In this document: positions 1 to 32,826 of the stretch, piece by piece
How positions within the stretch are numbered: position 1 is the stretch's first letter
Layout: each line of letters begins with the position of its first letter
DNA from: a virus
Virus record (IMG/VR): IMGVR_UViG_3300044713_000060
Span: 1 to 36,672 of that record
DNA length: 36,672 bases
Direction: 5' to 3' (one strand)
Program-made: the position numbers and the translations under genes
The notes under the pieces: generated by a model
Databases searched by the model: none
What the model saw: the letters and a program-made list of their open reading frames with translations, nothing else
What the model was told of the DNA's origin: nothing

Positions 1-745
1 GCGAGTTGTTCATTCCAAAGATGGCAAGATCATGCCAGTGCGATGACAGCACGCCATTTAGACAGGCATGTGAGCTGAATCCGCCGGTACATCCGGTAAG
101 CGGAGCGACCGGAATAAGAATCGTGATCCCCTGGCCTTGGCCGTGAATGTCCATGCCCTGGCCCCATGCGCTGGTATCCGTTCCAAGGGGACGGCAATTT
201 GCAGGCGCGGTGATGAAGTGAGCTGCGCTGAAAAGGATTACGCCACCCGGAAGCAATCCGGCCGCACAAGTTGGGTAGGCTTGAATCGCGGTATCAAGCG
301 CGGTGAGGCCCGTATCTTCCAGCGGGCCGATGACGAAGCACCCTCCCGAAGCCACGGTTCCCGTATTCGCTATGCTGAGCGTGACCTGCGTCGCGCTGTT
401 GACGGTGATCGTTCCGGAGGCTGTAACCGCTCCACTTACTTCTTGCGCTCCGCCAGCCGCGCATGTGGAAACGCCTATCAGCGTCCAGCCGTTCATCGCC
501 GAAGTGAATCCGCACGAAGCGGAAGTCAGCGTAGATTGCGTGTTCGTCCATACGCCATCCAGGCAAATCTTTCCCGGAGCTTTGATGGTGGTGGTGACTT
601 GCGCGGGGTTGGTGGCGTCGATGATGTGCAGCGCTACCGAGTTGCTGCTCCCGCTACTGCTCCCCGACGGGAAGTTTTGTTGCTGCGCGAATGCGCTACC
701 GCCAAGCGCCAGCAACGTGGCGAAAACTACGATGAGTCTTTTCAT
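1..745 (-). CDS. Exported tail/surface-like protein, cut by the window edge
   Basis: The reading frame opens with ATG at 745 and stays open to base 1, so the C-terminus is missing; 248 codons are visible. Residues 1-20 form a clear Sec signal peptide (MKRLIVVFATLL..., cleavage likely after AFA). The mature part is rich in Gly, Ser, Thr and Ala with short beta-like strands, and the last visible part (about residues 215-248) has His, Gly and aromatic residues resembling the start of a beta-helix. It begins 7 bases after the stop of the tailspike-like gene, so the two are probably co-transcribed. Function is unknown; a secreted or virion-attached surface-binding protein is the best guess. Confidence 0.75.
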   Translation of the reverse strand, partial: MKRLIVVFATLLALGGSAFAQQQNFPSGSSSGSSNSVALHIIDATNPAQVTTTIKAPGKICLDGVWTNTQSTLTSASCGFTSAMNGWTLIGVSTCAAGGAQEVSGAVTASGTITVNSATQVTLSIANTGTVASGGCFVIGPLEDTGLTALDTAIQAYPTCAAGLLPGGVILFSAAHFITAPANCRPLGTDTSAWGQGMDIHGQGQGITILIPVAPLTGCTGGFSSHACLNGVLSSHWHDLAIFGMNNS

Positions 746-752
746 GGTTTAG

Positions 753-2963
753 CTATCTTCCTGGGCAAATATAGGTAACTCGGTAGTGCACGGAAGCCGT
801 TAAGGCCGCTCCATTTGTGTTCCAAGTGAAAGTGTCCGTCGTATTGGTCGGCGTGTTTTCGGCAAAGCTGGATGTGCCCAGCCATGCGGTGGCCGTATTG
901 TTCGGATAGACGATGCAGCCGGTCGTGTTGTTCGTGAATGTCTTCTGGAATTGAATCTGGATCGTGCCGGATGCGGATGGTCCCGTGCCGGTAGTGCAGT
1001 CGATTGCACCCCAGCTATCCGTGCTGCCTACGAGACCGCCGGAACAAGTAGCACCACCGCCACCGCCTGTTCCCCACGCAGCCAGCGGAGGAGTGGCCTG
1101 CGATGCCTGCAAGTGCGCGGAACCCATCTCTGACGCTATTCCGCTGCCGACAATGCGATGGTTTAGGGTCGCTAGTCCTAGGTTAGCGACGGGAATCGTA
1201 GTGGGAGAGTTGTCGATTACGTCGCAGTTTCCGCCCAGAGTACCTACAAAGAGAGAGGTCGGAGCCGCGCGACCCACGTTCTGGAACAGTTGGATATTGG
1301 AGCAGTTGATGTAATTCGCGGTGAACCAATAGGCTGCGGCCGAACCGCTAGAACTATCTTCCAGCGCCTCGCCGCCGATCAGATTCAAGATGCCGACGCC
1401 GCCAGATAGATTCACGTAATTGACGTTCGAGGTTCCAAGGTTCTCGAAATGGCAGCCGACGCAATCAATCGTGCCCGCCGAGCCCGCGGTCGTGCCATCA
1501 ATCGACAGCACCGTGTTGGAATCGAAGTGTGTCCCGATGAATCTTTTATTTGCCGCGCCGGAGCCCGCTCCGGTTAGTTTTACGCCCGTGCTGTTGACGG
1601 AGATCGAGCCGCCGTAAAAGGTATCGCCTTCAGTGCCGTCTGAGTTGTGGCCGATCGTGCAATAGGCGAGGCTTATGCTGTAGAAATTCATGGCCCAGCC
1701 GACGCCGAGCGACCCGCTGCTATCAACGCATTTGCCAAAGCCCTTCACCGCCAGATCGAACCAGTTAGCGAGTTGCGCTCCCCCGTTCGTTCCGCCGATC
1801 TTCAATCCGGTAGCCGATGAGCCGCATCCGCCGTTGGTCTCGCATGGTGTCGAACCAAGGTCGGTCGAACTGTTCAAGATGGCAACGTCTTGCCAGCCCT
1901 CGCCGCCAACGTAAGAGCCGCCCGCTGCGGGAGTGACATCGTAGATCAGTGCCGTGGTCGCAGTGGTGTGTTGATACTGAATGCAGGCGCCAGAAGTCGT
2001 CGTTCCGCTGGCACTGCCGACTACGCTCACCGGCCGAACGCGAATATACTTTCCAGCCGTGTTCATCACGATCGGCGTGGTGTAGAGATAGCAGCCGCCG
2101 CCGGTTTGTGGGATTAGATCAATCTCACCGTCCGATGATAAGGTCGCGTACGCTGCGTTGAACTGCGCTCCGATGTCCGATGAGCCCCAAAACGATGCGC
2201 CGAGTGCGCCGCCAACGTAGAGCGCCGTATTCAGGTTCACGGCCGAGATTGTGCCGGTGAACGAGTTGTTTCCGCTGAAGGTATTGTTTGCGCCCGCCTG
2301 AATCCCGCATGTCCCTGTGGCAGATCCCGGTACGCACGCTACCGTAACCACATAGGTGGTCGTCGTGACCGTTGTGGAGTAGTACTGCAGCAGATAAGGA
2401 TTGGCGAGCGCGTAGAAATTGACGTTCCCGCGCCCGTCCGACGTGAACGGATTGCTCGCCGTCACCGTTCCCGTGGTGTCGGTGTAGACCGTAGCGAGCG
2501 GCAGGCAGGAAACCGTTGGCCCGCCGATCTGCACCACGTTCCCGGCTGTCGCGCCGCTGCCCGTGGCCGAACTGTTGATGAAGGTAATTGTGGTCGGACT
2601 TAGACCTGTGATGTTCTGGTAGGTGAAAACGCCTGCATTCAACGGGCTGTTGTAGGAATTGAGCGGCGACGGAACGTTATAGACCTGCACCGACGAGCCG
2701 ATGGTAAAGCCTGCCGTGATCGGATTGCTCGAAACCGTCAGTGTCACGATGCTGGAAGATACCGCCACGCTCGTGATCGGGATGCCCTGGCACACCGCCA
2801 CGTTGACGCCGCCAAGCGGACGGCCCTGCCCGTTGAGCGCGATAGTCTGGAAATTCCCAGCCTGACCCTTCGCCGAAGACAAGGCGAAAAGCGAAAGCAG
2901 GGCTAGTACTGTAGCCTTAAGGCACAACGGTACTTTTAGGCTATGGCGTGTTTTTGGGCTCAT
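753..2963 (-). CDS. Exported beta-helix tailspike-like protein
   Basis: 736 residues from the chosen ATG. The frame extends upstream to a GTG at 3065, but only the ATG at 2963 puts a Sec signal peptide at the N-terminus: basic n-region, hydrophobic core at about 14-28, cleavage near residues 32-35. Residues 155-195 resemble a carboxypeptidase-regulatory-like beta-sandwich (YTDTTG, TSDGRGN). From about residue 262 the motif DIGAQFNAAY followed by GEIDLIP looks like the entry of a right-handed pectate-lyase-type beta-helix, as in phage tailspikes and depolymerases. The position after the ejection-protein genes matches P22 gene 9. A signal peptide is odd for a virion protein. It may act outside the cell, or the signal may have another role. 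Confidence 0.8.
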   Translation of the reverse strand: MSPKTRHSLKVPLCLKATVLALLSLFALSSAKGQAGNFQTIALNGQGRPLGGVNVAVCQGIPITSVAVSSSIVTLTVSSNPITAGFTIGSSVQVYNVPSPLNSYNSPLNAGVFTYQNITGLSPTTITFINSSATGSGATAGNVVQIGGPTVSCLPLATVYTDTTGTVTASNPFTSDGRGNVNFYALANPYLLQYYSTTVTTTTYVVTVACVPGSATGTCGIQAGANNTFSGNNSFTGTISAVNLNTALYVGGALGASFWGSSDIGAQFNAAYATLSSDGEIDLIPQTGGGCYLYTTPIVMNTAGKYIRVRPVSVVGSASGTTTSGACIQYQHTTATTALIYDVTPAAGGSYVGGEGWQDVAILNSSTDLGSTPCETNGGCGSSATGLKIGGTNGGAQLANWFDLAVKGFGKCVDSSGSLGVGWAMNFYSISLAYCTIGHNSDGTEGDTFYGGSISVNSTGVKLTGAGSGAANKRFIGTHFDSNTVLSIDGTTAGSAGTIDCVGCHFENLGTSNVNYVNLSGGVGILNLIGGEALEDSSSGSAAAYWFTANYINCSNIQLFQNVGRAAPTSLFVGTLGGNCDVIDNSPTTIPVANLGLATLNHRIVGSGIASEMGSAHLQASQATPPLAAWGTGGGGGATCSGGLVGSTDSWGAIDCTTGTGPSASGTIQIQFQKTFTNNTTGCIVYPNNTATAWLGTSSFAENTPTNTTDTFTWNTNGAALTASVHYRVTYICPGR

Positions 2964-3003
2964 TGCGATAATTGGTTGTGCGGCTAGGACGACGGTCCGA
3001 ACG

Positions 3004-3023
3004 GCAGGTGCATCCCGACCTGC
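3004..3023. repeat. Inverted repeat in the divergent intergenic region
   Basis: A perfect 6-base inverted repeat, GCAGGT and ACCTGC, is separated by 8 bases. It lies between the leftward tailspike-like gene (start 2963) and the rightward cassette (start 3068), where a shared operator or transcript hairpin would be expected. No T-run follows, so it is not a typical terminator. Short repeats like this arise by chance, so the role is uncertain. Confidence 0.3.
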
Positions 3024-3067
3024 TTGCCGCGCAGTAAAAACGGGAAGCTGCACGGGAGGCAGCACGG

Positions 3068-3472
3068 ATGAAATATCTAGCCTTGGTTGTTCTGTTGTTC
3101 CCCATCGTCACTTTTGCCGGACCTGAAAGAAAGATCGAAGCACCGAAACCTAAAGTTATGGATCGGGAATTCTTTGCTGCGATGACCGTCCTTGCTGCTG
3201 CGAAAACGGCGGACGGCATTACCAGCATCCGAATGCTGAACCGCGGCTGCCACGAGACGAATCCGATTTTCGGAGAGCGGTATCCTTCCAGCGGTCGCAT
3301 CGCCGGTACGAATGCTGCTTACCTTGCTGGCGAAGTCGCCCTGGCGTATACGCTGAAACGCTTGGGACAAAATCATCGTTGGACGAAGCATCTTTGGCTG
3401 ATCGAACCGGCTTACCAGGTCGGAGGCCACATCGCAGCCGCCGCCGACAATGAAGCGTTGGTGTGCCAATGA
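3068..3472 (+). CDS. Exported 134-residue protein of unknown function
   Basis: First gene of a plus-strand cassette in a minus-strand genome. ATG is preceded by GGGAGG at about 8 bases spacing. Residues 1-18 are a Sec signal peptide (MKYLALVVLLF..., cleavage after TFA). The mature protein contains a helix ending in ADGITSIRML, then CHETNPIFG and YPSSGRIAG. This resembles a small protein type that I recall from soil bacteria and phages (TAD-ETNP-PS pattern), related to DUF5658-like proteins; that match is from memory. Two further hydrophobic segments (about 75-95 and 105-125) could be membrane helices. Its stop overlaps the next start (ATGA). Lysis, exclusion or host-surface roles are possible, but none is shown. 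Confidence 0.75.
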   Translation: MKYLALVVLLFPIVTFAGPERKIEAPKPKVMDREFFAAMTVLAAAKTADGITSIRMLNRGCHETNPIFGERYPSSGRIAGTNAAYLAGEVALAYTLKRLGQNHRWTKHLWLIEPAYQVGGHIAAAADNEALVCQ

Positions 3473-3603
3473 TTCACTTCGCGCTGACCATCGCAGCGGC
3501 TCTCTTTCTCGCATGGGTCGGCTTCATCGCCATCGGTGTCTTCATCTCAATTTTCAGTGCGATTTTTGGTCCTAAAAAATATCGGTACAAGGGGACACGA
3601 TGA
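3469..3603 (+). CDS. 44-residue single-helix membrane protein
   Basis: A small gene coupled by ATGA to both its upstream and downstream neighbours. The product starts MIHFALTIAAALF and is almost entirely one hydrophobic helix (residues about 4-34), ending in a short basic tail (PKKYRYKGTR). Size and topology would fit a minimal holin or a membrane partner of the exported protein before it, but there is no second helix and no recognisable family. The precise double overlap is the main evidence that it is real. Confidence 0.6.
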   Translation: MIHFALTIAAALFLAWVGFIAIGVFISIFSAIFGPKKYRYKGTR

Positions 3604-3806
3604 ACGACGCACACATAACCGCAATGTGGCTTTTGTTCTGCAAAGCTCCGAAGAAAGCGACGCCTGACGTTGACGGTTCATTCTCACTTGGAGAAATTGG
3701 CGGAGCTCCCGAAAAACAATGGACTCGCTTAACCCCGTACTCGATCGCACGAAAGGAGCCCCATGAGTTCCACGTCAATAGCTACGCGCTGGTTCCCTGC
3801 CGCTGA
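3600..3806 (+). CDS. Hypothetical 68-residue protein
   Basis: Starts at an ATG overlapping the stop of the 44-residue membrane protein (ATGA). The product has a cluster MWLLFCKAPKKAT and a charged, aromatic C-terminal half, with no recognised domain. Its last 44 bases overlap the next gene, which has a much stronger ribosome binding site. It is kept because it continues the coupled chain; it could be a leader that only couples translation. Confidence 0.45.
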   Translation: MNDAHITAMWLLFCKAPKKATPDVDGSFSLGEIGGAPEKQWTRLTPYSIARKEPHEFHVNSYALVPCR

Positions 3807-4047
3807 AACTGCCGAAGAGTGCAAGTGCGGTGTTGAAGGCTGCTTGGGGCATGAAGTTGTCGATACGATTGTTCAGTTTCCTGGCTTCACGTCTGCCGTT
3901 GTCGCTGACCGATGCACAAATCCTATCTGTTTGCTCGATCTTCCTGCGGAAGACGGCGTTTACGTCTTTACTGACGACCCCGAGATGGCTGGCGCAACGG
4001 CTGGGAGTCCAGCACTGTTTCTGTACCGTTGGCGTCCACGCGAATAA
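3763..4047 (+). CDS. Hypothetical cysteine-containing protein, last gene of plus-strand cassette
   Basis: 94 residues. The ATG is preceded by AAAGGAG at about 5 bases, one of the best SD sequences in the window. Residues 20-28 carry CKCGVEGC with a nearby His (GHEVV), then a further C-x4-C (CTNPIC), so a small metal site is possible. The last 80 bases run antisense to the 3' end of the leftward gene ending at 3968, so the transcripts converge and overlap. No family is recognised. Confidence 0.65.
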   Translation: MSSTSIATRWFPAAETAEECKCGVEGCLGHEVVDTIVQFPGFTSAVVADRCTNPICLLDLPAEDGVYVFTDDPEMAGATAGSPALFLYRWRPRE

Positions 4048-5230
4048 TCTTTTGCCCTGGCCCAGCCTTCAAGTCCTGACGGCCGAGTCCAACGAGCGGA
4101 GAACGTCCACCACCCGGATTCTCGCGGAAATACTTCACGCCTTGCGCGTTTTCGGATGTCATTCTTCCCTGCTCCTCTAAACCACCACCGCCCGGCGCTC
4201 CACTGGCGTTGATGCGTGGCCCAACGGACTCCGGTTCCATAAGCTCGATTTCCGGTTCGCCCTGACCTAAAGGTTCAAGCGGATTTCCCTGCGCATCGAA
4301 ATGCGTAACCGACCTGGCTGCGCCCGACGATGGAGTCATTGTTGCGTTCGGATCAGCAATCAATCCCACGTTCGGAACGTCCAATTGGCGCAACTGTGCT
4401 TGCACGGCGGCCGGACGAGTCAGGGCGTTCCCTGTACTGGCGAGGTCGGCTACGCTCGTGTTCTTCCATGTTGCGGGCCTACCTTCAGATTCAGGTACCG
4501 GAGTAGTCGGCGTTACTATAGGAGATTGCGCCGCGGCTTTTTGTGCCGCCTTCTGAGCGGCCTTGACTCCAGCTGGCCCCGTATATCCGCGGGGAACCGG
4601 GCTTTTGCTGACAGGCACCGGCTTGCCGGATTCCCCTTCAAACTCACTGTAAGCCCCGTGTACCTTGGGAGGTTGGGTAGCATCGGGAACCAAAGCATCA
4701 ACAAGTCCGGCTGTCATCGAATGCGGGGCAGCAACCTTGGCGACGTTAGATAGAGTATCTTTGGCTGCAATCACTTGGGATTTCGCTGCGTTCAATCCAG
4801 GTCTAACTTCACCAGCGGCTAGAGGTCCGGCAATCGTCCCGCCCAGCGTTGCCGCAGCGCCACCGTAATTCCCTGCCCGCACATCCTTTGACGCTGCAAC
4901 AGCGCCAGGACCAATGATCGGCACGGCACCGACAATGCTCTCTTGGCTCGGATGCTGAATTGCCTCTTGCGCAGGTTTCCAGAACGGCTGAGAGTCTTCG
5001 TTTTGCCCGAATAATCCCTTTGTCCAATGCGGGACATCAGAAAGCGAAGTCGGCAAGCCTGCAGCACCGAGAAACTTCCCTGCGTATTCGTTGCCCTTGG
5101 CGAGAGCTGAATCAAGCAGCCCCGGCTTTGCAGCGGGTTTCTGTCCGGGTACGTCTTCCCAATCCGCATCGGCAACCGCAGCACCACCGCCGCCTGCACT
5201 GGGCTTTACGTCCTCCCAGTCATCAGCCAC
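3968..5230 (-). CDS. Putative ejection (internal virion) protein, Ala/Gly/Pro-rich
   Basis: 420 residues from a GTG that overlaps the stop of the preceding gene by 8 bases. Two DWEDV repeats stand at residues 4-8 and 24-28, followed by Ala/Gly-rich segments (about 95-150) that look amphipathic or membrane-seeking. The C-terminal half is low in complexity and rich in Pro, Gln and Gly. There is no enzyme motif. It is the last of three genes between the nozzle-like protein and the tailspike, where P22-type phages keep proteins injected with the DNA (gp7, gp20, gp16). The role is inferred from position and composition only. Confidence 0.7.
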   Translation of the reverse strand: MADDWEDVKPSAGGGGAAVADADWEDVPGQKPAAKPGLLDSALAKGNEYAGKFLGAAGLPTSLSDVPHWTKGLFGQNEDSQPFWKPAQEAIQHPSQESIVGAVPIIGPGAVAASKDVRAGNYGGAAATLGGTIAGPLAAGEVRPGLNAAKSQVIAAKDTLSNVAKVAAPHSMTAGLVDALVPDATQPPKVHGAYSEFEGESGKPVPVSKSPVPRGYTGPAGVKAAQKAAQKAAAQSPIVTPTTPVPESEGRPATWKNTSVADLASTGNALTRPAAVQAQLRQLDVPNVGLIADPNATMTPSSGAARSVTHFDAQGNPLEPLGQGEPEIELMEPESVGPRINASGAPGGGGLEEQGRMTSENAQGVKYFRENPGGGRSPLVGLGRQDLKAGPGQKIIRVDANGTETVLDSQPLRQPSRGRQ

Positions 5231-20836: not shown

Positions 20837-22564
20837 CTAAATGAACTTCGCTCGTAGGTTTTGCAGCGTCCAAACGTCGGTGCCCGTTGCATGCAGGAAG
20901 ATAACGTTGAGGCGAGTCGCATCGGCAAGATTCAATGAGCCGACGGTACCAGCCGCTACGATGTCACCTGCAGCCGCCACGGTTGCGACGGATACTCCGC
21001 TGGCAACAGCGGTTCCCATCACGTGATTGATCGAGCCGCCAGTATTCGATGCGGAAGCTACGGTAGTTTGGAAGTCCACACAGAACGACATGTGGCCTCC
21101 GGTTGCGAACGTGACGGTGCTGCCCAGATCGGCAAGCAATACACCTTTACCGGCAGTGTTCTGGCCTTGAGCGTCCCACTGGAATTGAACGTCTTCGGTG
21201 GTGGCAGTCGTGGAGGCTGAGGTCATATCGCCGCAGACTTCCAGCGTTCTGCCCACCTGATTCATCGCATTGGGAGCGAGATTGATGGTCCCGACGACAG
21301 CAGGAACGGTCGTATTCGTCGAAGCCCCGGCTGGAAACGCAAGAGCGTTCGAAACGGTGACGCCCGCTGTGCCTACCGCTGTAGCTTGCGCGTAGGTGTA
21401 CGTGGTGCGCCCGCCCGCTTGAGGAATGTAAATGGAAGTGGTTGAACCTGCAGTTGCGGTTCCGGGCTGGATCTGTGAGGTGTTGACCGTGATCGCCGTG
21501 ACCGTCGCAGTAGCGCCAGCCTGGCCGTAAGAGGTGTTGGCCACTGCGCAAGCCGGTGTAATCGTCTCGACCGTGGTCAGCGTGCAAACGCCGTTGGCTA
21601 CCGGGTAAGCGCCAATGACGGTAGGCTGAGTTACGAGCGGAACCTTGTACTGCAGGATGGTTGAACCGGCCGCAGTCAAGCCGATGTAGATGGTGTATCC
21701 AACCGCACCGGTCGAAGCTGCCGGAGCCGAGAAGATGAACGAACTGGTTGAACCGGCGCCGGTGTTCACGAACGACGTGGAGCATGGGCCTTCCTGCCCG
21801 TAGATGTCCACATACGCGATGCACATGTTGTAGGCCGTCGCCGTGAACGCACCGACCGGAGTGGTCGAAGGTAGAGCCGTCAATGCCGTGAGAGTCGTTG
21901 GAACTGCGAGAACGGAAGCGCCGCCGAGCGGAACCCAGTACGATGCTCCAGCGCGGTCATCCTCCAACGTAACGCCCTGGTAGACATTGGCCGCCGCCAT
22001 CGCCGCGGTTACGGTCTGCGCGCCGCCAAGATAGAAGTTGGCGGAGCCGTCTATGGAAACGACACCGCCGCCCCAGAATGCCGCATCGTTGATCGCTTCC
22101 TGAATACCGGCCGAGCCTGAAGTTACAACCTCGCCTTGCCCGTGCGCGTTCGAAAACGTTGCGGTAATCGAGCAGGTACCTTGCGGTGCGCCGACATAGC
22201 AGCCGGACACAGCCGTGGGAGTGACCGTCTCTTTCGTAGTGCCAGCGCCTACCGTGATCGGAATCGCGGGATACGGTCCAGGCTGGCCGAGGATGTTGAA
22301 TCCGCCCGCCGAGAACGGCACGATCGTGCGACCGTCCTGCAGGCGTACTGAGCCTTGACTGAGCGTGATCGTCGCCGCACCGGAAGCGTTGTTGCCGCTG
22401 AAGATGCGGATGCCCGGATAGGCGTAGTTGCGGGCAACGAACTTGCCGCCGACAAACGATTGGTTGGCCGGGGGATTCTGTTGCGCGTTGGCCGGAAGCG
22501 GAGCAAACACCAGCGCCGCAGCCAGCAAGAGCGAGAAAAGGGCCTTCGTTACATAGTGCGTCAT
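20837..22564 (-). CDS. Large exported repeat-rich protein within the packaging module
   Basis: 575 residues with a clear Sec signal peptide (KALFSLLLAAALVFAPLP, cleavage after ANA at about 27). The mature part is Thr/Ala/Gly-rich beta. SAGIQEAINDAAFWGGGVVS at about 150-170 resembles a beta-helix entry, and residues 210-310 look like fibronectin/Ig-like strands (AYNMCIAYVDIYG; VGYTIYIGLTAAGS). The end (TGTDVWTLQNLRAKFI) is compact. It lies between small phage proteins and close to the portal, not in the tail block. Virion proteins rarely carry signal peptides, so it may be displayed on or released from the host. Confidence 0.75.
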   Translation of the reverse strand: MTHYVTKALFSLLLAAALVFAPLPANAQQNPPANQSFVGGKFVARNYAYPGIRIFSGNNASGAATITLSQGSVRLQDGRTIVPFSAGGFNILGQPGPYPAIPITVGAGTTKETVTPTAVSGCYVGAPQGTCSITATFSNAHGQGEVVTSGSAGIQEAINDAAFWGGGVVSIDGSANFYLGGAQTVTAAMAAANVYQGVTLEDDRAGASYWVPLGGASVLAVPTTLTALTALPSTTPVGAFTATAYNMCIAYVDIYGQEGPCSTSFVNTGAGSTSSFIFSAPAASTGAVGYTIYIGLTAAGSTILQYKVPLVTQPTVIGAYPVANGVCTLTTVETITPACAVANTSYGQAGATATVTAITVNTSQIQPGTATAGSTTSIYIPQAGGRTTYTYAQATAVGTAGVTVSNALAFPAGASTNTTVPAVVGTINLAPNAMNQVGRTLEVCGDMTSASTTATTEDVQFQWDAQGQNTAGKGVLLADLGSTVTFATGGHMSFCVDFQTTVASASNTGGSINHVMGTAVASGVSVATVAAAGDIVAAGTVGSLNLADATRLNVIFLHATGTDVWTLQNLRAKFI

Positions 22565-25921: not shown

Positions 25922-26055
25922 TATTTAGCTCCGTACGGCCATAAATACACGATAGCGATGGCCACGATGACTGCAATCGCGGCGACGCTGATAACTACGA
26001 CAACCATCCAAAAGGCGATCAGTTCCCATTTCGACCAAGGACTCGCGTCTTTCAC
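25921..26055 (-). CDS. 44-residue single-pass membrane protein
   Basis: GTG at 26055 overlaps the previous stop (GTGA) and follows GAGGGG at about 9 bases. A longer in-frame reading (from 26148) retraces the upstream gene. Residues about 10-38 are one strongly hydrophobic helix (WMVVVVISVAAIAVIVAIAIV) flanked by Lys/Trp and ending YGAK. A holin, antiholin or other membrane factor is possible, but a single helix of this kind is not diagnostic. Confidence 0.6.
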   Translation of the reverse strand: MKDASPWSKWELIAFWMVVVVISVAAIAVIVAIAIVYLWPYGAK

Positions 26056-26372
26056 GCAAGGGCGCCCCTCAACCGTAACTGGCACACCAGCTCGCCTACC
26101 CGCGCTTCGCTCTCGCGGTAACGTTTGCCGTCGCGCTCGAAGATCCATGAGCCTTCGAGGTAGCCGGTCTGCTCGATCGGCTGGAAGAGCTTGTCTTTTA
26201 AGCTGGATAGATCGGCGAAACTGTGGAAGGTGCGTTGCGGGCCAATGTAGCGGTAGGCGTTGAAGCCGGAGGGTTCGATGAGCAGAGATGCCAGGAGAGA
26301 ATCGCGGTCAGAGCGACTGATATTTGCCTTAGTGCGATCGGGGTAGGTGACTACGAATTGTTTGCGGGCCAT
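26052..26372 (-). CDS. Hypothetical 106-residue protein
   Basis: Starts MARKQFVVTYPDRTKANISRSD and ends with a basic helical part (ESEARVGELVCQLRLRGALA). It looks like a small alpha/beta protein with RYIGPQRTFHSF in the middle. Single Cys only. No family recognised. Its ATG follows directly after a TGA that closes an otherwise unassigned open frame (26373-26510). Confidence 0.6.
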   Translation of the reverse strand: MARKQFVVTYPDRTKANISRSDRDSLLASLLIEPSGFNAYRYIGPQRTFHSFADLSSLKDKLFQPIEQTGYLEGSWIFERDGKRYRESEARVGELVCQLRLRGALA

Positions 26373-26510
26373 TCAGAGACGACAATGCTCTTGGGAAAGC
26401 AGCATTGGACCCACCGCGGTTTCCGACCCTGCGCGATGGACAGGGACTACGTTGGTACCGCCACTATATGACGCTATCAGAGCGCGTAAAGGGAAAACTG
26501 TAGGAAGGGC

Positions 26511-26711
26511 TTACGTGGAGGCTATTTCTAGTGTTGGCTTGGTGGCGATGACCTCGCGGGTCCAGAATTGGTGAGCGCACTTAGGATTTCTGCATTTTTG
26601 CCGACGCATTCGATGGAGACTCACCCCTTCGCCGCGGCGATGCGAATCGAGCACTTTAGATGGTCCGTGACACATCGGGCAGGGTAGGCCGCCTTTCGTG
26701 CGAGCCTTCAA
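26511..26711 (-). CDS. Zinc-ribbon protein resembling NrdR N-terminus
   Basis: 66 residues from TTG overlapping the previous stop (TTGA). The pattern CPMCHG ... VLDSHRRGEGVSLHRMRRQKC (split) ... KCAHQFWTREVI has two Cys pairs with basic residues between them, like the N-terminal zinc ribbon of the NrdR repressor (CPxC, DSR, RRRxC..C..RF/TxE). It lacks the ATP-cone of a true NrdR, so it is a small zinc-binding regulator or DNA-binding protein. The same open frame continues past its TAA for 45 codons. Confidence 0.65.
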   Translation of the reverse strand: MKARTKGGLPCPMCHGPSKVLDSHRRGEGVSLHRMRRQKCRNPKCAHQFWTREVIATKPTLEIAST

Positions 26712-26881
26712 TGCCGCGCCTCTGGCCGCTTGAATTCGCTCTCCGACTTGATGCGCTCGATGGGCCAGCCCTTTTTAGCTGCGATGGCCTGCTCTTTGTG
26801 GTTCGCGCAGAAGCCAACAGCGTTGACCTGATACAAAGCGGCTTTGCCACAAAGCACGCACTTCGTAGGCTCCAAGGTCAT
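26708..26881 (-). CDS. Zinc-binding-like protein, 57 residues
   Basis: ATG at 26881 overlaps the stop of the HNH-like gene (ATGA); the upstream part of the frame retraces that gene. The motif CVLCGKAA ... VGFCANHKEQA contains two Cys pairs (the second as C-x2-H) typical of small zinc ribbons. The rest is basic and helical (AKKGWPIERIKSESEFKRPE). One of many small Cys proteins in this region. Function unknown; no HNH or enzymatic residues are visible. Confidence 0.6.
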   Translation of the reverse strand: MTLEPTKCVLCGKAALYQVNAVGFCANHKEQAIAAKKGWPIERIKSESEFKRPEARH

Positions 26882-27333
26882 GCCTTGGCTTTCCGATGTT
26901 CCTCGAGGTGACAATTCACGCAAAGCCAGACAACTTGATCTGGTTTGCTGTAATCACGGTGATGCCCGTGCAGCAGAGAGGCCCCATTTCTCGATCTTTT
27001 TTCCGGTTTACCGCAGTTGGAACAAGCGGAAGGCTTAGAAATCAAGCCCTTGGCCAAAAGTCGCCTAAAAATCTGATGGACCTTCCTCTTTTGAGGTTCT
27101 CTCGAAGCCCATTCCCTAGTACGCCGACGCCTGGCCTCAGCTAGACGCTCTTGGTTCTTTTCCATCCAAAGTCTACGAACCTCTTTGGCGTGCTCGCTCT
27201 TTTCATAGATGGCTATCTTTTCCGCATGTTTCGCTCTGTATTTGGCCGCGTGATGCACCATTCTTTCTCGCAGCTTGTCCCTGTTTCTTTCGCGGTACCT
27301 GGCGTTGGACAGTCTCTTTTTCTCAGTAGCCAT
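26878..27333 (-). CDS. HNH-like zinc endonuclease
   Basis: 151 residues. The long basic N-terminus (ARYRERNRDKLRERM) reads like a DNA-binding coiled helix. Residues about 104-143 contain CSNCGK, then HGHHRDYSKPDQVVWLCVNCHLEEH, the Cys-His-His-Cys layout of an HNH fold. It shares the core with the gene at 30461-30796 (GHHEDYSKP, LWLCRPCHCKAH), so the two are paralogues. Cuts DNA or acts in homing; target unknown. The upstream 78 bases hold nothing else recognisable. Confidence 0.7.
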   Translation of the reverse strand: MATEKKRLSNARYRERNRDKLRERMVHHAAKYRAKHAEKIAIYEKSEHAKEVRRLWMEKNQERLAEARRRRTREWASREPQKRKVHQIFRRLLAKGLISKPSACSNCGKPEKRSRNGASLLHGHHRDYSKPDQVVWLCVNCHLEEHRKAKA

Positions 27334-27411
27334 TTATCGCTCCGCCTTGCCGCATAGGCAGCAGATGGTAGGCTCCCGATTTCGACCCAGCGGTGTGGAT
27401 TCAATCACGGG

Positions 27412-27738
27412 CTACCGCTCGCTCGATTGGCCGCACTCATCTTCGACCATTCGCTCGGCTCGCTTCTTCGCTTGTTCCAGAGATTGGTAATGGGGTCCAT
27501 TGGCAATAAAAACCTCTTTCATGCCATCCTCGCTAACTATCCCAATATGTTTGAGTTCCCCGTCTTTGCACACGTAGTCATCGTTAAAATTGTAGTCGCC
27601 GTCACGAGGGCCTTGGGATGTGACCCAATGGTGCCTGCCGGTTGTGATCCAATTGTGCTTACCTTCAATGTGACCGAGTGCGAACCCAGCAACGAACCAA
27701 ATTAGAGTGAAAACGTAGATTTTTGCTCGCTCGCTCAT
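27412..27738 (-). CDS. Membrane-anchored hypothetical protein, 108 residues
   Basis: ATG with GGGAGG about 5 bases before it. Residues 4-24 (AKIYVFTLIWFVAGFALGHI) form a transmembrane helix, then a polar part rich in Trp, His and Asp (HNWITTGRHHWVTSQ). The second half is a soluble domain with FIANGPHYQSLEQAKKRAERM. The topology is one N-terminal anchor with an outside domain, if inserted normally. Not recognised. Confidence 0.65.
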   Translation of the reverse strand: MSERAKIYVFTLIWFVAGFALGHIEGKHNWITTGRHHWVTSQGPRDGDYNFNDDYVCKDGELKHIGIVSEDGMKEVFIANGPHYQSLEQAKKRAERMVEDECGQSSER

Positions 27739-28367
27739 CGCTTCCTCCCGCGGTCGCCGCGAACTTTCGCTTGGGAACTACCGCGTTTTGTGTCAGTTAT
27801 GGCTACCGCCACAGTCATTTTGTGCTCAGGATCGAACTCATCCGCCAGCGCTTTGAGCATCTTCTCTCGATGCGTGTGACCTCCTGCGCCATACTGTTCC
27901 GCCACTTGCCGCAAGCGCGTGCCAACGTGAGCCTTAGAGATCGTCTTACCTGCCAACGCTGCAACGTCCCCAACCGTGGCCAGCGTCGCCTGGGATTGCT
28001 CGATGCGCGCCAGCCGGTCATAGATGGATTTCGCTATGGCTTCTCTGTGATCCGTTGCTTCCTGCTCGATTAGGCCGATGCTGTAGCCCAAAGGATCGCC
28101 ATCCGGCCCTACAACAGCCTTATCAATCCGCTCTAGATACTCAATGAGCCACGCCTTTCCCAGCAAGCTTCGCGCCTGCGTGCAGTCGTGGCAGTTGCAG
28201 ACCGGCTCTGTATGTAACCCCTGCGGTGCGGGCTGCTTCATGGCTACCGCCTCATTTGTGATGGGCCTAGCCACATTGCAGTCAGGACAAAACCACTCTG
28301 GCGACCACGAAGATTTCCGTAGCGCGGTTCCGCATTTAGAGCAAATCGGCATTATCGTTGCGCTCAC
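27735..28367 (-). CDS. Hypothetical protein with N-terminal zinc ribbon, 210 residues
   Basis: GTG at 28367 overlaps the previous stop (GTGA); an in-frame ATG at 28352 would remove only five residues. CSKCGTAL ... WFCPDCNVA at about 9-32 is a clear zinc ribbon, and CNCHDC at about 57-62 is a second Cys cluster. The rest is helical (LLGKAWLIEYLERI; LRQVAEQYGAGGH) with an Arg-rich end (VRGDRGRKR). Looks like a DNA- or RNA-binding protein. No enzyme motif is seen. Confidence 0.65.
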   Translation of the reverse strand: MSATIMPICSKCGTALRKSSWSPEWFCPDCNVARPITNEAVAMKQPAPQGLHTEPVCNCHDCTQARSLLGKAWLIEYLERIDKAVVGPDGDPLGYSIGLIEQEATDHREAIAKSIYDRLARIEQSQATLATVGDVAALAGKTISKAHVGTRLRQVAEQYGAGGHTHREKMLKALADEFDPEHKMTVAVAITDTKRGSSQAKVRGDRGRKR

Positions 28368-28492
28368 GCTGGGCCTATCTCACGCTTTGGCGGTGGTATC
28401 GACTTGCGCCAGCACCGCTCAGAGCAGAATTTTACATTGCCGTGCTCCGACTGATGAATCGGTCGGCCACAAGTAAGACATGCTCGTTTCAC
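28364..28492 (-). CDS. Small four-Cys zinc-ribbon protein, 42 residues
   Basis: A short gene on GTG overlapping the RusA-like stop (GTGA) and ending in another GTGA overlap. CLTCGRPI ... KFCSERCWRKS holds two C-x2/3-C pairs, as in small zinc ribbons of the type found at the ends of many phage proteins. Basic throughout. Double overlap and Cys pattern support it. Confidence 0.65.
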   Translation of the reverse strand: MKRACLTCGRPIHQSEHGNVKFCSERCWRKSIPPPKREIGPA

Positions 28493-28866
28493 GCTGCCTC
28501 CGCTGGACCTATCTCAATCACCGTGCGCTTGTCCTTGCGCGTGCTCTTGACCTGCTCGACGTTAAGCTCAAAGAATTCTGGACGGTCATCGTAGATCATC
28601 CCTGCTTCTCTCGCGGCGTCAGCGATGATCTTGCACGCCCCGAAAGCATTGTCTCGGTCGTATTGGCGAGAATTATAAATGGTCACTACCATTCGCATCT
28701 TGCTGCGACAATAGGCTTTAGCTGCCAAGAATTTAAATGCTGACGGAGGCAATCCGTAGAAATGATTTCCCCAGTTCATTTTAAGCCTGCGCTTCACAGC
28801 CCAATGCATCCGCAGCACCTTGTTTAAGCTCGGCGGCACATCTGGCACCGTGATCGTGTAGGTCAC
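28489..28866 (-). CDS. rusA: RusA-family Holliday junction resolvase
   Basis: 125 residues, close to RusA size (120). It opens with IPxxPPSLN-like VPDVPPSLNKVLR, then NSRQYDRDNAFGACKIIADA with Asp 70, Asp 72, Asn 73 and Lys 79, and GMIYDDRPEF with Asp 93/94. This matches the catalytic acidic residues of E. coli RusA (Asp 70, Asp 72, Asp 91) and its Lys. Resolves recombination intermediates of the phage DNA before packaging. It belongs with the ERF-like and exonuclease genes further upstream. Confidence 0.88.
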   Translation of the reverse strand: MTYTITVPDVPPSLNKVLRMHWAVKRRLKMNWGNHFYGLPPSAFKFLAAKAYCRSKMRMVVTIYNSRQYDRDNAFGACKIIADAAREAGMIYDDRPEFFELNVEQVKSTRKDKRTVIEIGPAEAA

Positions 28867-29066
28867 TTGGGCGCCCCCTGCGTTTGCGAGCCCGCCGGTC
28901 CCACAGTCGATGCCGCATCATTCCTAGCTAGCGCCCTCAATTCTTTCGCGGCGTGCTGGCGACAATAAGGAACACCGTTCATCTTCCGATCTGCGTAGCA
29001 TCGACATTGGTTGCCAGCAGCCGTGATCCCTTCGCAACGCTTCGTGGTATCGTAAATCTCGCTCAT
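28863..29066 (-). CDS. Small Cys/His zinc protein (DUF5763-like)
   Basis: 67 residues from ATG overlapping the methyltransferase stop (ATGA), with GGGAG at 5 bases. The motif RCEGITAAGNQCRCYADR ... VPYCRQH gives Cys, Cys-x-Cys, Cys and His, typical of the small C-G-T-xx-G-xx-C ... YC-xx-H proteins found in phages and plasmids. Probably zinc-binding. The remainder is Ala/Gly/Thr-rich and disordered. Confidence 0.7.
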   Translation of the reverse strand: MSEIYDTTKRCEGITAAGNQCRCYADRKMNGVPYCRQHAAKELRALARNDAASTVGPAGSQTQGAPK

Positions 29067-29545
29067 GGTTGCTCCCAACTACTAACTCGCGGTCCGCTAG
29101 TCATTCGATAAGGAGATTCACTTTCCCGGAATACAATGAGCGCGTGACCTGTGAATGGAACGCCTTTTTTGCCATTGCTTGCGACAAAACTAAGCTTCTT
29201 ACGGATAAAGCGGATCTCATCGGCTCTCAGCACCCAATCGTGCCACCAAGGCGCGTTCGTGTTCGTAGGCACAAGCGCCACGACGATGGTTCCCATACAA
29301 TCGCGCGTCGATTTAATGGCCTTGGCCATGAACGCGCCCATCGTTTTCACATTTCCGTATGGCGGATTCAGCCAACCTATACCGTCCCAAAGGACATCAC
29401 TTGCCAAGGTCAGGCTCGTTGGGATGAACTTCTCACACTTTCGATTGATCCTGTCCGCACACAAATCGACCGTGAAGTGGAACTCTGCGTCCAGCTTGTC
29501 GAACACAGCTTGCGGCGTAGACCATACCGTTGCGCTAGCTATCAT
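29063..29545 (-). CDS. Phage-type DNA N6-adenine methyltransferase
   Basis: 160 residues from ATG 29545, chosen because the Dam-like domain starts here and it overlaps the previous stop by 11 bases. The sequence VWSTPQAVFDKLDAEFHFTVDLCAD (shown split: VWSTPQAVFDKL, FTVDLCAD), a conserved Cys, the catalytic NPPY at about 60-63 (GWLNPPYGN) and a WWHDWVL segment fit the phage DNA N-6-adenine-methyltransferase family. It would methylate adenine to protect phage DNA from restriction or mark it for packaging; the site is unknown. Confidence 0.85.
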   Translation of the reverse strand: MIASATVWSTPQAVFDKLDAEFHFTVDLCADRINRKCEKFIPTSLTLASDVLWDGIGWLNPPYGNVKTMGAFMAKAIKSTRDCMGTIVVALVPTNTNAPWWHDWVLRADEIRFIRKKLSFVASNGKKGVPFTGHALIVFRESESPYRMTSGPRVSSWEQP

Positions 29546-30185
29546 GCCGCCCGTCCTGACTGTTCGACCGTGGCGTTTGCGAGCGTTCGATGGCCGCATT
29601 CAACAAATCCGCAATATACTTACACTTTTCACGCTTCCCGCGAGCTTTCGTAATAGCCTGTTCAATCATTTCTTTCGTGACCAGTCGCGCCCCAGCCATC
29701 GCTCGATCACCCGGCCCCGCCGCCCGTCCAGCATCATACAGAGCTTGCGCGTAGGCTAAGTCCGTCTTGTTAAACTCATCAGCCGAGACTTTGCGCTTAA
29801 TCAGCGGCTCCCAATACTTCGCGCTGAACTCAGCTACGTCGAACTTGTCACCCGGCCCCGCCGCCTCAACTTCTAATTCCTTGAGGATGTGCTCGCAGAC
29901 CGCCGTCATCAGCTTGCGATTCTGCTCAGGGACCTTTTCCCACTCAACCGCCGACTCTTTGCGCGTCTCGTAGCCGAATTTTGGAGCTAGGTACTCGTAG
30001 GTCTGGTGGAAACGTTTCGCCAAGTCATCGGGCGTCCAGCGTGGCCCCGGCGTGGGCGTCTGCGAAGCTAGCGCGGCGTGCGCCAATAACCGAACATCCC
30101 GCGTAAATTGATCTATCTCAACGTTCACGTGCTTCAATACTCGCTCAGCCGCTTCACTTAACTGGCTCATAGCTTCCTCGTTCAT
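29535..30185 (-). CDS. Hypothetical phage protein, 216 residues
   Basis: ATG at 30185 directly follows the previous stop; an in-frame ATG at 30170 has a better SD (GAGGA). The core DLAKRFHQTYEYLAPKFGYE ... EWEKVPEQNRKLMTAVCEHI is a helical motif that I recall in many phage early proteins of unknown function (W..V.E..R..M..A). The C-terminal part is basic helical (TKARGKREKCKYIADLL) and disordered at the end. Role unknown. Confidence 0.65.
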   Translation of the reverse strand: MNEEAMSQLSEAAERVLKHVNVEIDQFTRDVRLLAHAALASQTPTPGPRWTPDDLAKRFHQTYEYLAPKFGYETRKESAVEWEKVPEQNRKLMTAVCEHILKELEVEAAGPGDKFDVAEFSAKYWEPLIKRKVSADEFNKTDLAYAQALYDAGRAAGPGDRAMAGARLVTKEMIEQAITKARGKREKCKYIADLLNAAIERSQTPRSNSQDGRHDS

Positions 30186-30365
30186 TCACTTATCGACCGA
30201 GTCCGTACGCAGAAAACTAAATTCTGACAACTTCTCAATACGCATCGCCTTGATCGAAGGAATCCGCGCTTTGGGCAAACATAGCTGGACACGCTCAATC
30301 GCCTCCTTGCCATTGTCACAATCAGGAACATGAATAGTTACCGTTGCCTTGACTTCCCAATTCAT
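30186..30365 (-). CDS. Small hypothetical protein, 59 residues
   Basis: ATG at 30365 preceded by GGAGGAGG, one of the strongest SD sequences here although at short spacing (3 bases). It begins MNWEVKATVTIHVPDCDNGK and continues as an alpha/beta mini-protein (AIERVQLCLP, IEKLSEFSFL). The stop is immediately followed by the next ATG. No family recognised; strong expression is suggested. Confidence 0.6.
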   Translation of the reverse strand: MNWEVKATVTIHVPDCDNGKEAIERVQLCLPKARIPSIKAMRIEKLSEFSFLRTDSVDK

Positions 30366-30460
30366 AGACCTCCTCCGCCGCGCTAGTCGTCATTGCTGCC
30401 CTCCCCGACTGTTTGCCCGCCCTACCTTGTCGAAGGACGCTGCGCCCGCCCTGTCACACC

Positions 30461-30796
30461 TCATAGAATCCTCATTTTTCTTCCATGCGCTTTACAGTGA
30501 CACGGACGACACAACCACAACACCTCTAGCGGCTTACTGTAATCTTCGTGATGCCCTTCTGGATTGCAGATTAAACCGCAACGAGTGCAATGGTCAGGCT
30601 TTGAAATCTTCGACCGCACGGCATTCCTCAGTATTTTCCCGGCTAAATGTCGGTCAGGGTGTTTTTCCCTATAGTTGGCTTTATTTTTCCGATGCTCTTC
30701 TGTGTTTCCTCCAACGCGCTTCCGCACATACAATCCACAATGGAGGGCATTCTTTTCTCGCCACTTCCTCATGTACTCCGCATGTTTAGAAGCCAT
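30461..30796 (-). CDS. HNH-like zinc endonuclease, paralogue of 26878-27333
   Basis: 111 residues. The basic N-terminus (KHAEYMRKWREKNALH) is followed by ISKPDHCTRCG and GHHEDYSKPLEVLWLCRPCHCKAH, the same core as the gene at 26878-27333 (ISKPSACSNCG, GHHRDYSKP, WLCVNCHLEEH). Two Cys pairs and three His would form the HNH metal site. It probably arose by duplication of one endonuclease gene. It may be a homing-type enzyme inserted among early genes. Confidence 0.7.
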   Translation of the reverse strand: MASKHAEYMRKWREKNALHCGLYVRKRVGGNTEEHRKNKANYREKHPDRHLAGKILRNAVRSKISKPDHCTRCGLICNPEGHHEDYSKPLEVLWLCRPCHCKAHGRKMRIL

Positions 30797-30808
30797 TCCC
30801 CGCTCCGC

Positions 30809-31057
30809 TCAACTCATCGTTCGATGGCATACCGCCCCCTCGTCCCCGATGAGTCGTACGTTTCTTTTCCTCAGTTCTTCCACCGACTTTTGCTCATCGA
30901 ACCACGACAAAATAGCGGCTCCAAGTAATCGCCCTTCGTATGGGCCGATAAACTCACACGCCTCGCGTACTGCCGTCTTTTTAATGTGCATCGTGTAGAG
31001 CCGAATCTTCCCGGACCCCCACCGCGACGGACTCCACAACTTGCTTTCAGTTCTCAT
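30809..31057 (-). CDS. Hypothetical 82-residue early protein
   Basis: ATG with AAGGAGGT about 7 bases upstream, a strong SD. MRTESKLWSPSRWGSGKIRL leads into an alpha/beta domain with KTAVREACEFIG, GRLLGAAILSWFDEQKS and ELRKRNVRLIGDEG. Charged, compact, not recognised. A host-takeover or regulatory role is a guess only. Confidence 0.6.
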   Translation of the reverse strand: MRTESKLWSPSRWGSGKIRLYTMHIKKTAVREACEFIGPYEGRLLGAAILSWFDEQKSVEELRKRNVRLIGDEGAVCHRTMS

Positions 31058-31107
31058 CCCCTAGACCTCCTTGCCCGCGCCAGCTCTCATGTCGCCCACC
31101 CATCGCG

Positions 31108-31431
31108 TCACCAAATCGAACGTTCTGGCGGTAGCCACTTCAAGATCAAATCTTTCTTCTCGCCATCCGGCATGTGCTCTCGGTGCTGAAGCATCCATGT
31201 TTTCGGAGTTCCCTGCGGAAGCTTGTGAAACGTTCTGTGGCAAGGCACGCACACGGCTACAAGGTCATCGTCTTTTTCGCGGCCGAGTCTCTCATAGGTC
31301 AAATGATGGACCTGAAGCGTGACATTGCTCTGCCCGCACATTTCGCAGTAACAATGCCGCTTGAGATATTCCCCGCGGCGAAGAGACCAGCAATCCAGCT
31401 TCACGTATTTTTCGTAAGTTGCTTTGTCCAT
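31108..31431 (-). CDS. HNH endonuclease, 107 residues
   Basis: ATG at 31431 was chosen for its GGAAGG at about 4-5 bases; the frame also has an ATG at 31443. Canonical HNH layout: CYCEMCG (Cys 29/32), VHHLTYERLG (His 42/43), LVAVCVPCHRTFHK with the Cys pair at 61/64 and His 65. The end is basic. It cleaves DNA, and may be a homing enzyme or act at packaging. It overlaps the end of the preceding gene by about 31 bases. Confidence 0.8.
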   Translation of the reverse strand: MDKATYEKYVKLDCWSLRRGEYLKRHCYCEMCGQSNVTLQVHHLTYERLGREKDDDLVAVCVPCHRTFHKLPQGTPKTWMLQHREHMPDGEKKDLILKWLPPERSIW

Positions 31432-32039
31432 GCGGCCTTCCATCGAAGTCGATTCCGTTCCTGAAGAGGTAAGTTGTAAAACATCGCCAGCTTTTGTTGC
31501 TCCGACCGCGGAGTCGGTGCCAAGCCTTCTTTGCGCTGAGCCTCATCGCGCGTTTCTTCGTCCTTTAGCCACTGGATATAGGCATCGTGATTGACGTTGA
31601 ATGCATCCGAAGTGACCGGCGAAAATACGGGCGAACTCGGTCTGGCTTGCTTTTCCTCGATCTGTGCCAGGTTGGCTTTCAATTTCTCCGAGAAATACAG
31701 AGCTTCAGTTCGCTCTTCTTCGCTAATCGGTGCCTCGTCCAAGTACTCCGGCCTTTCGCTGATTACTACGCCTTCAAAGGTCCGCTCTCGGATGTGTGCG
31801 ACAGTCGGCATACGGTCTACCTCGCGCAACGCAAGCGCACATGCGCGGTCAATCTGTTCCGGTTTAAGGTCTGCGAGGCCCTCAATGTACGCCACCATCC
31901 CCAATTCGCTTATTTCCTTGTGGTGATGCTCCATGAAGATCCCGACCCACTTGGTTATAACTTCCAACCGTTCTCTGGATAGCTGCAATGCTCGATTCCC
32001 TGCGGATGGCATCGAATGTCTTTCGTGTTGCTCCGTCAC
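31401..32039 (-). CDS. Helicase-loader-like replication protein
   Basis: 212 residues from a GTG with GGGGAG 9 bases upstream (an ATG at 32012 is the alternative). The N-terminal part LEVITKWVGIFMEHHHKE ... AYIEGLADLKPEQIDRACALAL ... MPTVAHIRERTF resembles the G39P-like helicase-loader domain (helical, with L..L.PE..D.A...AL and FPT/MPT..ELR) and is followed by a charged tail. It would place or regulate the replicative helicase at the phage origin. The first 158 bases overlap the upstream gene in another frame. Resemblance from memory; moderate confidence. Confidence 0.6.
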   Translation of the reverse strand: MTEQHERHSMPSAGNRALQLSRERLEVITKWVGIFMEHHHKEISELGMVAYIEGLADLKPEQIDRACALALREVDRMPTVAHIRERTFEGVVISERPEYLDEAPISEEERTEALYFSEKLKANLAQIEEKQARPSSPVFSPVTSDAFNVNHDAYIQWLKDEETRDEAQRKEGLAPTPRSEQQKLAMFYNLPLQERNRLRWKAAWTKQLTKNT

Positions 32040-32259
32040 CGTCTCGGTCTCCCCTCAGAGGCCAAAGTCCCTGCCAGCACATGAATGTCGATTGATCAAG
32101 CACCATTGCCGGGTCCCATCCTTGTTTGCGAAGGGCCGCGAGTCTTTTTATCGCCATGCCCTCCGCTCTCTTTGTCATCGGTTTTTTCATCACCCGACGC
32201 ATCTCTATGTACCCATCCCAAGCTTCTTTTGAGAGCCAATCAGGTAATTCAGTGGTCAT
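31882..32259 (-). CDS. DnaT/O-like replication protein fragment
   Basis: 125 residues from ATG 32259 (AAGG about 8 bases upstream); an earlier TTG at 32283 has no SD. ELPDWLSKEAWDGYIEMRR, then KRLAALRKQGWDPAMVLDQS and CWQGLWPLR, match the conserved C-terminal part of many phage replication initiation proteins (LPDWIxxEAW..Y..MR, GxDxxxVLxxS...WxGL). Here it stands as a gene by itself. The final 52 residues are encoded in the 158-base overlap with the helicase-loader-like gene. First gene after the non-coding stretch at 32260-32574. Confidence 0.65.
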   Translation of the reverse strand: MTTELPDWLSKEAWDGYIEMRRVMKKPMTKRAEGMAIKRLAALRKQGWDPAMVLDQSTFMCWQGLWPLRGDRDGDGATRKTFDAIRRESSIAAIQRTVGSYNQVGRDLHGASPQGNKRIGDGGVH

Positions 32260-32340
32260 CGAGGAGACCTTTTTCCACTTCAAAACCTAGAAGAAAGATA
32301 GCACGCGATTCGCCAAACTTTACTGCTCGTAATAGTCAAC

Positions 32341-32350
32341 TTTCATGAAA
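32341..32350. repeat. Perfect 10-base palindrome in the replication intergenic region
   Basis: TTTCATGAAA is its own reverse complement. It lies upstream of the leftward replication genes, close to a possible promoter. Could be an operator half-site for a regulator. A palindrome of this size can occur by chance in AT-rich stretches, so only moderate weight. Confidence 0.35.
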
Positions 32351-32371
32351 CAAAGCCACTTAAAACCCCAC

Positions 32372-32402
32372 TTTCGCTATTGACCAACCGATGGTAGCGA
32401 AA
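32372..32402. repeat. 8-base perfect inverted repeat near a candidate promoter
   Basis: TTTCGCTA and TAGCGAAA, with a 15-base loop. The right arm lies where transcription from the candidate promoter at 32406-32414 would begin, so it may be an operator or a transcript hairpin controlling the downstream replication genes. No T-run follows. It is the strongest structure in the stretch 32260-32574, which otherwise holds no gene. Confidence 0.5.
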
Positions 32403-32405
32403 ACC

Positions 32406-32414
32406 TAAATAGCA
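32406..32414 (-). promoter_or_regulatory. Candidate extended -10 promoter element, leftward
   Basis: On the minus strand this reads TGC followed by TATTTA, an extended -10 (TGn TATAAT-like). There is no -35 hexamer at normal spacing, as is common for extended -10 promoters. Transcription would start near 32399 and run into the DnaT/O-like gene. The inverted repeats at 32372-32402 and 32413-32426 flank it. Confidence 0.35.
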
Positions 32415-32426
32415 CAACCTATTGTG
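32413..32426. repeat. Inverted repeat CACAA...TTGTG
   Basis: CACAA, 4-base loop CCTA, TTGTG. It overlaps the upstream edge of the candidate -10 element, where a repressor could block transcription. It is too short to be decisive alone. Confidence 0.35.
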
Positions 32427-32574
32427 GTACTAGATAAAGACAAGTACTGCCCGTAGATGAAAACACCAATCCTTCGCCGGGTATTCGTTGTCAATTTCCA
32501 GTTAACCCTCAGATCCTATCGATCGTCTCTTCGCGCATGGCCAGCACAACACCTGACTGCGCCAGCGCCTACGC

Positions 32575-32826
32575 TTACCGCACCAAATACAAATCCCTTG
32601 CTCCTTCAATCTCGCGCGCCGTTGCTTTCCGTACTCTTTCAGATAAGCGAGCTGCGCCCTCCGGCCACCCCTGACCATAGTCCAGCCCTTCCCACTCCCA
32701 CTTCCCCCACCAGTCTTTGGTGTAAAGTTCGGAACTAGAGCCCATCGTGTAAAAATACGGAATGCGGGTTTGCTCGTAGTAGCGCGTGTAGACCCAGCCT
32801 CCGATCTTTTTAACTTCGATCTTCAC
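32575..32826 (-). CDS. Hypothetical Trp-rich early protein, 83 residues
   Basis: GTG at 32826 overlaps the HNH gene stop by 17 bases. The product KIEVKKIGGWVYTRYYEQTR ... ELYTKDWWGKWEWEGLDYGQG has many Trp and Tyr, followed by a charged helix (RLSERVRKATAREIEGARDL). No family known to me. It is the last early gene before the intergenic region at 32260-32574. Confidence 0.6.
   Translation of the reverse strand: MKIEVKKIGGWVYTRYYEQTRIPYFYTMGSSSELYTKDWWGKWEWEGLDYGQGWPEGAARLSERVRKATAREIEGARDLYLVR

Follow-up and report, generated by a model that had tools for sequence, protein, structure and literature searches.

We found that a block of four plus-strand open reading frames (ORFs; genes A–D), lying within a minus-strand late operon of a viral contig, is headed by a copy of the int-alpA RNA. 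The contig, hereafter the window, is one whole IMG/VR record of 36,672 bases and is probably a fragment of a phage genome. Our computations demonstrated the leader RNA, its two loop targets, the insertion and the family of gene A. We estimate a probability of roughly 0.7 that the block is an acquired moron lying antiparallel within a podovirus-like late operon, where it separates the last pre-spike gene from the tailspike gene, that it is controlled by its RNA, and that it is a spike-linked envelope or exclusion unit.

Organization of the cassette

Genes A–D are flanked by two minus-strand genes, a divergent tailspike-like gene at 753–2963 and a convergent gene of 420 aa at 3968–5230. The contig terminates within a second spike-like gene (2–745, minus strand) at the left end of the window. 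The N-terminus of the 753–2963 product, which has a signal-peptide-like start, matches the protein starting at L010:9025 in G001, a relative whose terminase is 63% identical. Starts of this type were clear in three spike-like or structural-looking proteins of the window (753–2963, 2–745 and 20837–22564, all minus strand) and likewise in relatives. The original prediction of an isolated four-gene plus-strand cassette held for the ORFs and for their position between minus-strand genes, and we noticed no further multi-gene unit on the plus strand when reading the ORF lists of the window. Its start at 3004 did not hold, as the leader RNA begins at 2977. Because the divergent gap contains the int-alpA RNA, we moved the start of the unit; that is, the true extent of the cassette is approximately 2964–4047. 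A divergent regulatory gap had been correctly recognized, but the RNA element inside it had been overlooked.

Gene A (3068–3472) encodes 134 aa with a signal-peptide-like start and a D..TS...G.HE.NP motif, and its product is predicted to be an exported helical membrane protein. Gene B (3469–3603) encodes a strongly hydrophobic membrane peptide of 44 aa; the earlier description of a signal-sequence protein together with a 44-residue membrane peptide was thus borne out. Gene C (3600–3806; 68 aa) has the Shine–Dalgarno (SD) sequence AAGGGG, and gene D (3763–4047; 94 aa), with several Cys in its first 60 residues, has AAAGGAG. The end of gene D overlaps the convergent minus-strand gene by 80 bases. 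ATGA overlaps, which had been reported throughout, join A to B and B to C but not C to D, as D begins 44 bases inside C. Good SD sequences were found for A, C and D, and codon statistics favoured A and B, were weak for C and were neutral for D. As gene A has homologues, its coding evidence is real; that for B is fair, that for C weak and that for D neutral, and these last two may be non-coding ORFs.

The gene A family

Protein searches recovered homologues of gene A in G001, in L150 and, twice, in L153, whereas our searches gave no relative of B, C or D; the search of viral contigs for gene D likewise returned nothing. In L153, the first copy lies antiparallel between two spike genes and is followed by a small membrane protein, as A is followed by B in the window; this protein looks unrelated to B. 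The second copy lies past the second spike. The L150 homologue is located between two spike-like genes, to which it is ATGA-linked, and the diverged homologue of G001 (alignment score of 80 versus at most 61 in 2000 shuffles) is located behind the terminase gene, away from the spikes. The copies of L150 and G001 and the second copy of L153 are ordinary late-strand genes; therefore, expression from the opposite strand is not essential to the family. Gene A represents a spike-neighbour family in this phage group, the orientation of which changes freely.

None of genes A–D showed a meaningful match in Pfam, NCBIfam or PHROGs. DUF5658 (PF18902), whose motif D..T..G..E.NP we take to be similar to that of gene A, was rejected because the window and five relatives gave 0 profile matches. 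Searches for exact gene A peptides in viral and genome collections and a pattern scan of viral contigs with a two-sequence gene A profile returned nothing. The AF2 models were too poor to use (pLDDT of 48 for A, from a two-row alignment, and 42 for D).

The int-alpA leader RNA

The gap before gene A contains an int-alpA RNA (Rfam RF02996) at 2977–3048 on the plus strand, which scores 37.1 bits (gathering score, 35.8). The match is full-length (model positions 1–71; E of 3e-4 when the window is searched with all Rfam families), and int-alpA was the sole Rfam RNA in the window; in particular, C4 antisense RNA (RF01695) showed no match in 2700–4400 at E ≤ 1. The folded RNA (2977–3034, plus strand) comprises helices P1 (2977–2984/3026–3033), P2 (2987–2990/2995–2998) and P3 (3004–3009/3018–3023), the last of which carries the loop GCATCCCG at 3010–3017. 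This three-helix fold was kept, with 0 non-standard pairs in the Rfam and R1 alignments of the window copy. The model R1, built from 35 dereplicated viral int-alpA copies with the window left out, detected the window RNA at 43.9 bits (E of 1.7e-12), a score that is somewhat inflated because the R1 training pattern shares 15 letters with the window (and also with the Rfam consensus); the RF02996 match is free of this selection bias. Viral contigs contain at least 120 stretches that fit a core pattern of the family. Double changes preserving pairing occurred in 10 of the 15 pairs of the int-alpA family, and the segments CUAG, CGACG and CGAA are common to the family and the window RNA. Several members also have a T-run after P1, which is missing in the window copy; a terminated small RNA (sRNA) is therefore doubtful for the window. 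Comparison of the leader DNA with known phages gave one unannotated 40-base match, which had no Rfam match.

The P3 loop varies freely across the family, yet it complements two sites, T1, shortly past the RNA, and T2, in the SD region. Among 39 int-alpA copies, including the window, the mean longest Watson–Crick run was 5.13 for T1 and 4.64 for T2, whereas swapping the loops among copies gave 3.19 and 3.43, with maxima over 500 swaps of 3.70 and 3.82, respectively. In the window, both sites are at the usual spacing of the family. T1 is CGGGA at 3041–3045, and T2 (CGGGA, 3053–3057), together with most of the SD sequence, lies in the loop of a hairpin, GCTGC-ACGGGAG-GCAGC, at 3047–3063 (both plus strand). 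The SD sequence often lies inside the loop of such a small hairpin in the family (mean stem of 4.95 versus 3.82 in shuffles). The C4-type feature of a loop complementary to the ribosome-binding-site region was thus found both in the T2 statistic of the family and in the window, at 3053.

An extended −10 promoter-like element, TGCGATAAT, was read at 2964–2972 on the plus strand, and transcription from this putative promoter element would begin close to the 5′ end of the RNA. A weak TATAAT-like peak occurs 16–20 bases before CTAG in some members of the family; the window element is at −17. A sigma-70 two-hexamer scan found no promoter, and terminator-like sites were at chance level.

The int-alpA RNA in other viruses

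The integrase–alpA context is missing for the window copy, which lies between the spike gene and gene A, and for most viral copies examined; this location is the naming context of the family and no condition of the Rfam model. The first genes after 43 viral copies encoded HNH, GIY-YIG and endonuclease VII proteins, XhlA-like membrane proteins, Rha, Dam and unknowns. No more than about 20 bases separate the start of the RNA from the stop codon of the gene before it in more than a dozen viral loci (L020, L025, L039, L045, L057, L060, L076, L086, L092, L105, L111, L121 and L133), as if the RNA itself formed the left border of the unit. In the annotated Acinetobacter phages TRS1 and qsb1 (L137/L138; KX268652/PV107591, approximately 2500–3500), a related int-alpA-type leader stands between the genes for the tail terminator and the major tail protein; its cargo is Rha in one phage and AntB in the other, a natural cargo swap. 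The Rfam cut-off was reached by the qsb1 leader but not by that of TRS1.

Because the first genes are unrelated, the RNA starts close to the preceding stop codon and the cargo differs between TRS1 and qsb1, the int-alpA RNA acts within late operons like a portable head for cargo. We discarded the idea that the RNA is part of an RNA-guided HNH system, as much of the cargo is non-nuclease and the cargo in the window contains no nuclease. Several HNH-type endonuclease ORFs are present in the early region of the window (26052–33665, minus strand; Pfam HNH and HNH_3, with many PHROGs matches), and the int-alpA leader is absent before them. In one viral contig, int-alpA, isrK and C4 RNAs occur within 3 kb (L066:1263–4261). 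The literature searched, which did not cover the original motif description, contained no link between int-alpA and cargo cassettes and no description of a biological role for this RNA. The int-alpA RNA as the head of cargo cassettes, and the leader with one loop and two targets, are new here, and the window is a complete instance.

Probable acquisition of the cassette

The junction was compared with that of relatives. In G001, the positional equivalent of the 420-aa gene overlaps the spike gene by the 4 bases of ATGA, with no block between the pre-spike and spike genes. Such a block is likewise missing from the G005 junction, where only a membrane ORF of 61 aa is present, again antiparallel to the late genes (L012:6318–6503, minus strand). 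The absence of the block from the same junction in both relatives, together with the occurrence of the leader RNA before movable phage genes elsewhere, supports the proposal that the cassette is an acquired moron. The RNA was found in 0 of 80 further relatives, collected via the ejection-type protein, and its pairing with gene A was observed once. Near the end of the late operon, the relatives L185 (18359–19014, minus strand) and L178 (20834–22149, minus strand) have groups of small antiparallel ORFs whose products look like membrane proteins, exported proteins or lipoproteins; these are possibly further morons. The suggestion of an Acidobacteriota host received no support; a terminase scan of 84,980 genomes gave neither a relative nor a prophage.

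Proposed function and alternative explanations

We propose that genes A–D would be transcribed separately as a block with the int-alpA leader at its head. The RNA would keep translation of gene A low or timed, and that of B–D likewise through translational coupling. Pairing of the P3 loop with the SD site would take place in cis or, through a released sRNA like the P1 C4 and P4 CI RNAs, in trans, and T1 would compete with T2 for the loop. From its sequence, the loop with its two sites looks like an antisense switch of the C4 or P4 CI type. Exported A and membrane-bound B may alter the host envelope next to the step used by the spike, and we infer from their location and the kind of protein that their most likely role is spike-linked superinfection exclusion or receptor masking. 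The location and the kind of protein also make superinfection exclusion or conversion, as originally suggested, plausible; several other insertions near spikes in late operons would have a similar appearance, whatever they do.

Three other explanations concern the RNA and gene A. It is highly improbable that the RNA match arose by chance or marks a functionless, decayed relic. Although the RF02996 score is only 1.3 bits above the cut-off, J2/3 departs from the common AAAA and the RNA is absent from the phage-group relatives checked, the E value over all Rfam families is low, all pairs are intact, and the RNA lies exactly in front of gene A with both loop targets and the SD hairpin preserved. 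A serious possibility, which we place somewhat below even, is that the RNA has no trans antisense action and works solely in cis, through a pseudoknot that occludes the SD sequence or as a ligand- or temperature-sensitive leader. The short, narrow spacing of T1 past P1, the position of T2 at the SD sequence and the lack of a T-run in the window copy are consistent with this; however, members bearing the T-run could release an sRNA, Rfam files the family as an sRNA, and C4 and P4 CI act in trans (PMC5320573, PMC4825925). It is unlikely that gene A is a spike accessory, i.e., a chaperone, assembly factor or anchor for exported or membrane-bound spikes that travels with them for this reason. The homologues of L150 and L153 do adjoin spikes, with ATGA coupling in L150, and the spikes themselves begin with signal-peptide-like segments, but the copies in the window and in the first L153 locus run opposite to the spikes and have a start of their own, and that of G001 lies away from the spikes.

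The original prediction had also raised a new lysis cassette, in which A or B would be a holin and C or D would be lysis effectors. The cassette does encode small membrane proteins, and, as had been noted, no standard lysis gene was recognised elsewhere in the window among the matches listed by the Pfam and PHROGs scans. However, A–D gave no Pfam, PHROGs or NCBIfam match to endolysins, holins or spanins, and the lysis genes of relatives lie on the late strand past the spikes: a peptidase M15 gene in G005 and L173, and in G006, the record of L153, a Hydrolase_2 cell-wall hydrolase gene (E of 6.5e-15) with holin-like and coiled-coil spanin-like genes. The L153 phage holds its two gene A copies alongside that lysis set. 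As the sets of relatives lie beyond the spikes and the window ends inside the second spike-like gene, short of that position, the lysis genes of this phage are expected off the left end of the window. A lysis role for the cassette is therefore unlikely, and the new lysis cassette as formulated is very improbable.

Returning to the preferred reading of an RNA-controlled, spike-linked moron, the gene A family becomes a candidate for superinfection exclusion in an environmental phage group for which no cultured relative was found. More broadly, we tentatively suggest, with a confidence clearly short of even, that int-alpA RNAs are portable control heads for a wide class of phage cargo cassettes, each with a self-specific switch whose single loop chooses between a decoy, T1, and the SD site, T2, the window being an envelope-operon instance. 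If this is true, an RNA-led cassette could land in an active late operon without mistimed translation, with homing endonucleases, antirepressors or membrane proteins as cargo. The occurrence of the int-alpA RNA before many unrelated movable phage genes, with a covarying loop and two targets, leads to a specific hypothesis, namely that it is a plug-in translational lock for the cargo of phage operons; it could also mark morons in viral contigs.

Comparison with known systems

The leader resembles the int-alpA RNA of RF02996 in fold, conserved segments, size and place just upstream of a phage gene. It differs in that the family was named for its integrase–alpA position, whereas the window and most viral loci examined lead other cargo, and in the two loop targets described here. 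The C4 RNA of P1 and P7 lies upstream of the genes it controls, and its loops complement a specificity site and a ribosome-binding site (PMC5320573). Both are phage RNAs upstream of genes with a loop complementary to the ribosome-binding site; however, C4 (RF01695) has another sequence and model and uses two loops, whereas int-alpA has one loop for two sites. A similar case is the P4 CI RNA, a single RNA whose own operon contains two complementary sites (PMC4825925). CI, however, terminates transcription prematurely and its sites flank the RNA, whereas both int-alpA sites follow the RNA, the second being the SD sequence.

With regard to the cargo, the llp moron of T5 presumably adjoins the receptor-binding protein gene (llp–oad layout). 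Llp blocks FhuA and prevents superinfection (PMC9586334). By analogy, the predicted exported product of gene A is likewise small and could mask a receptor; Llp, however, is a lipoprotein, whereas gene A lacks a lipobox, and we found no sequence relation between the two.
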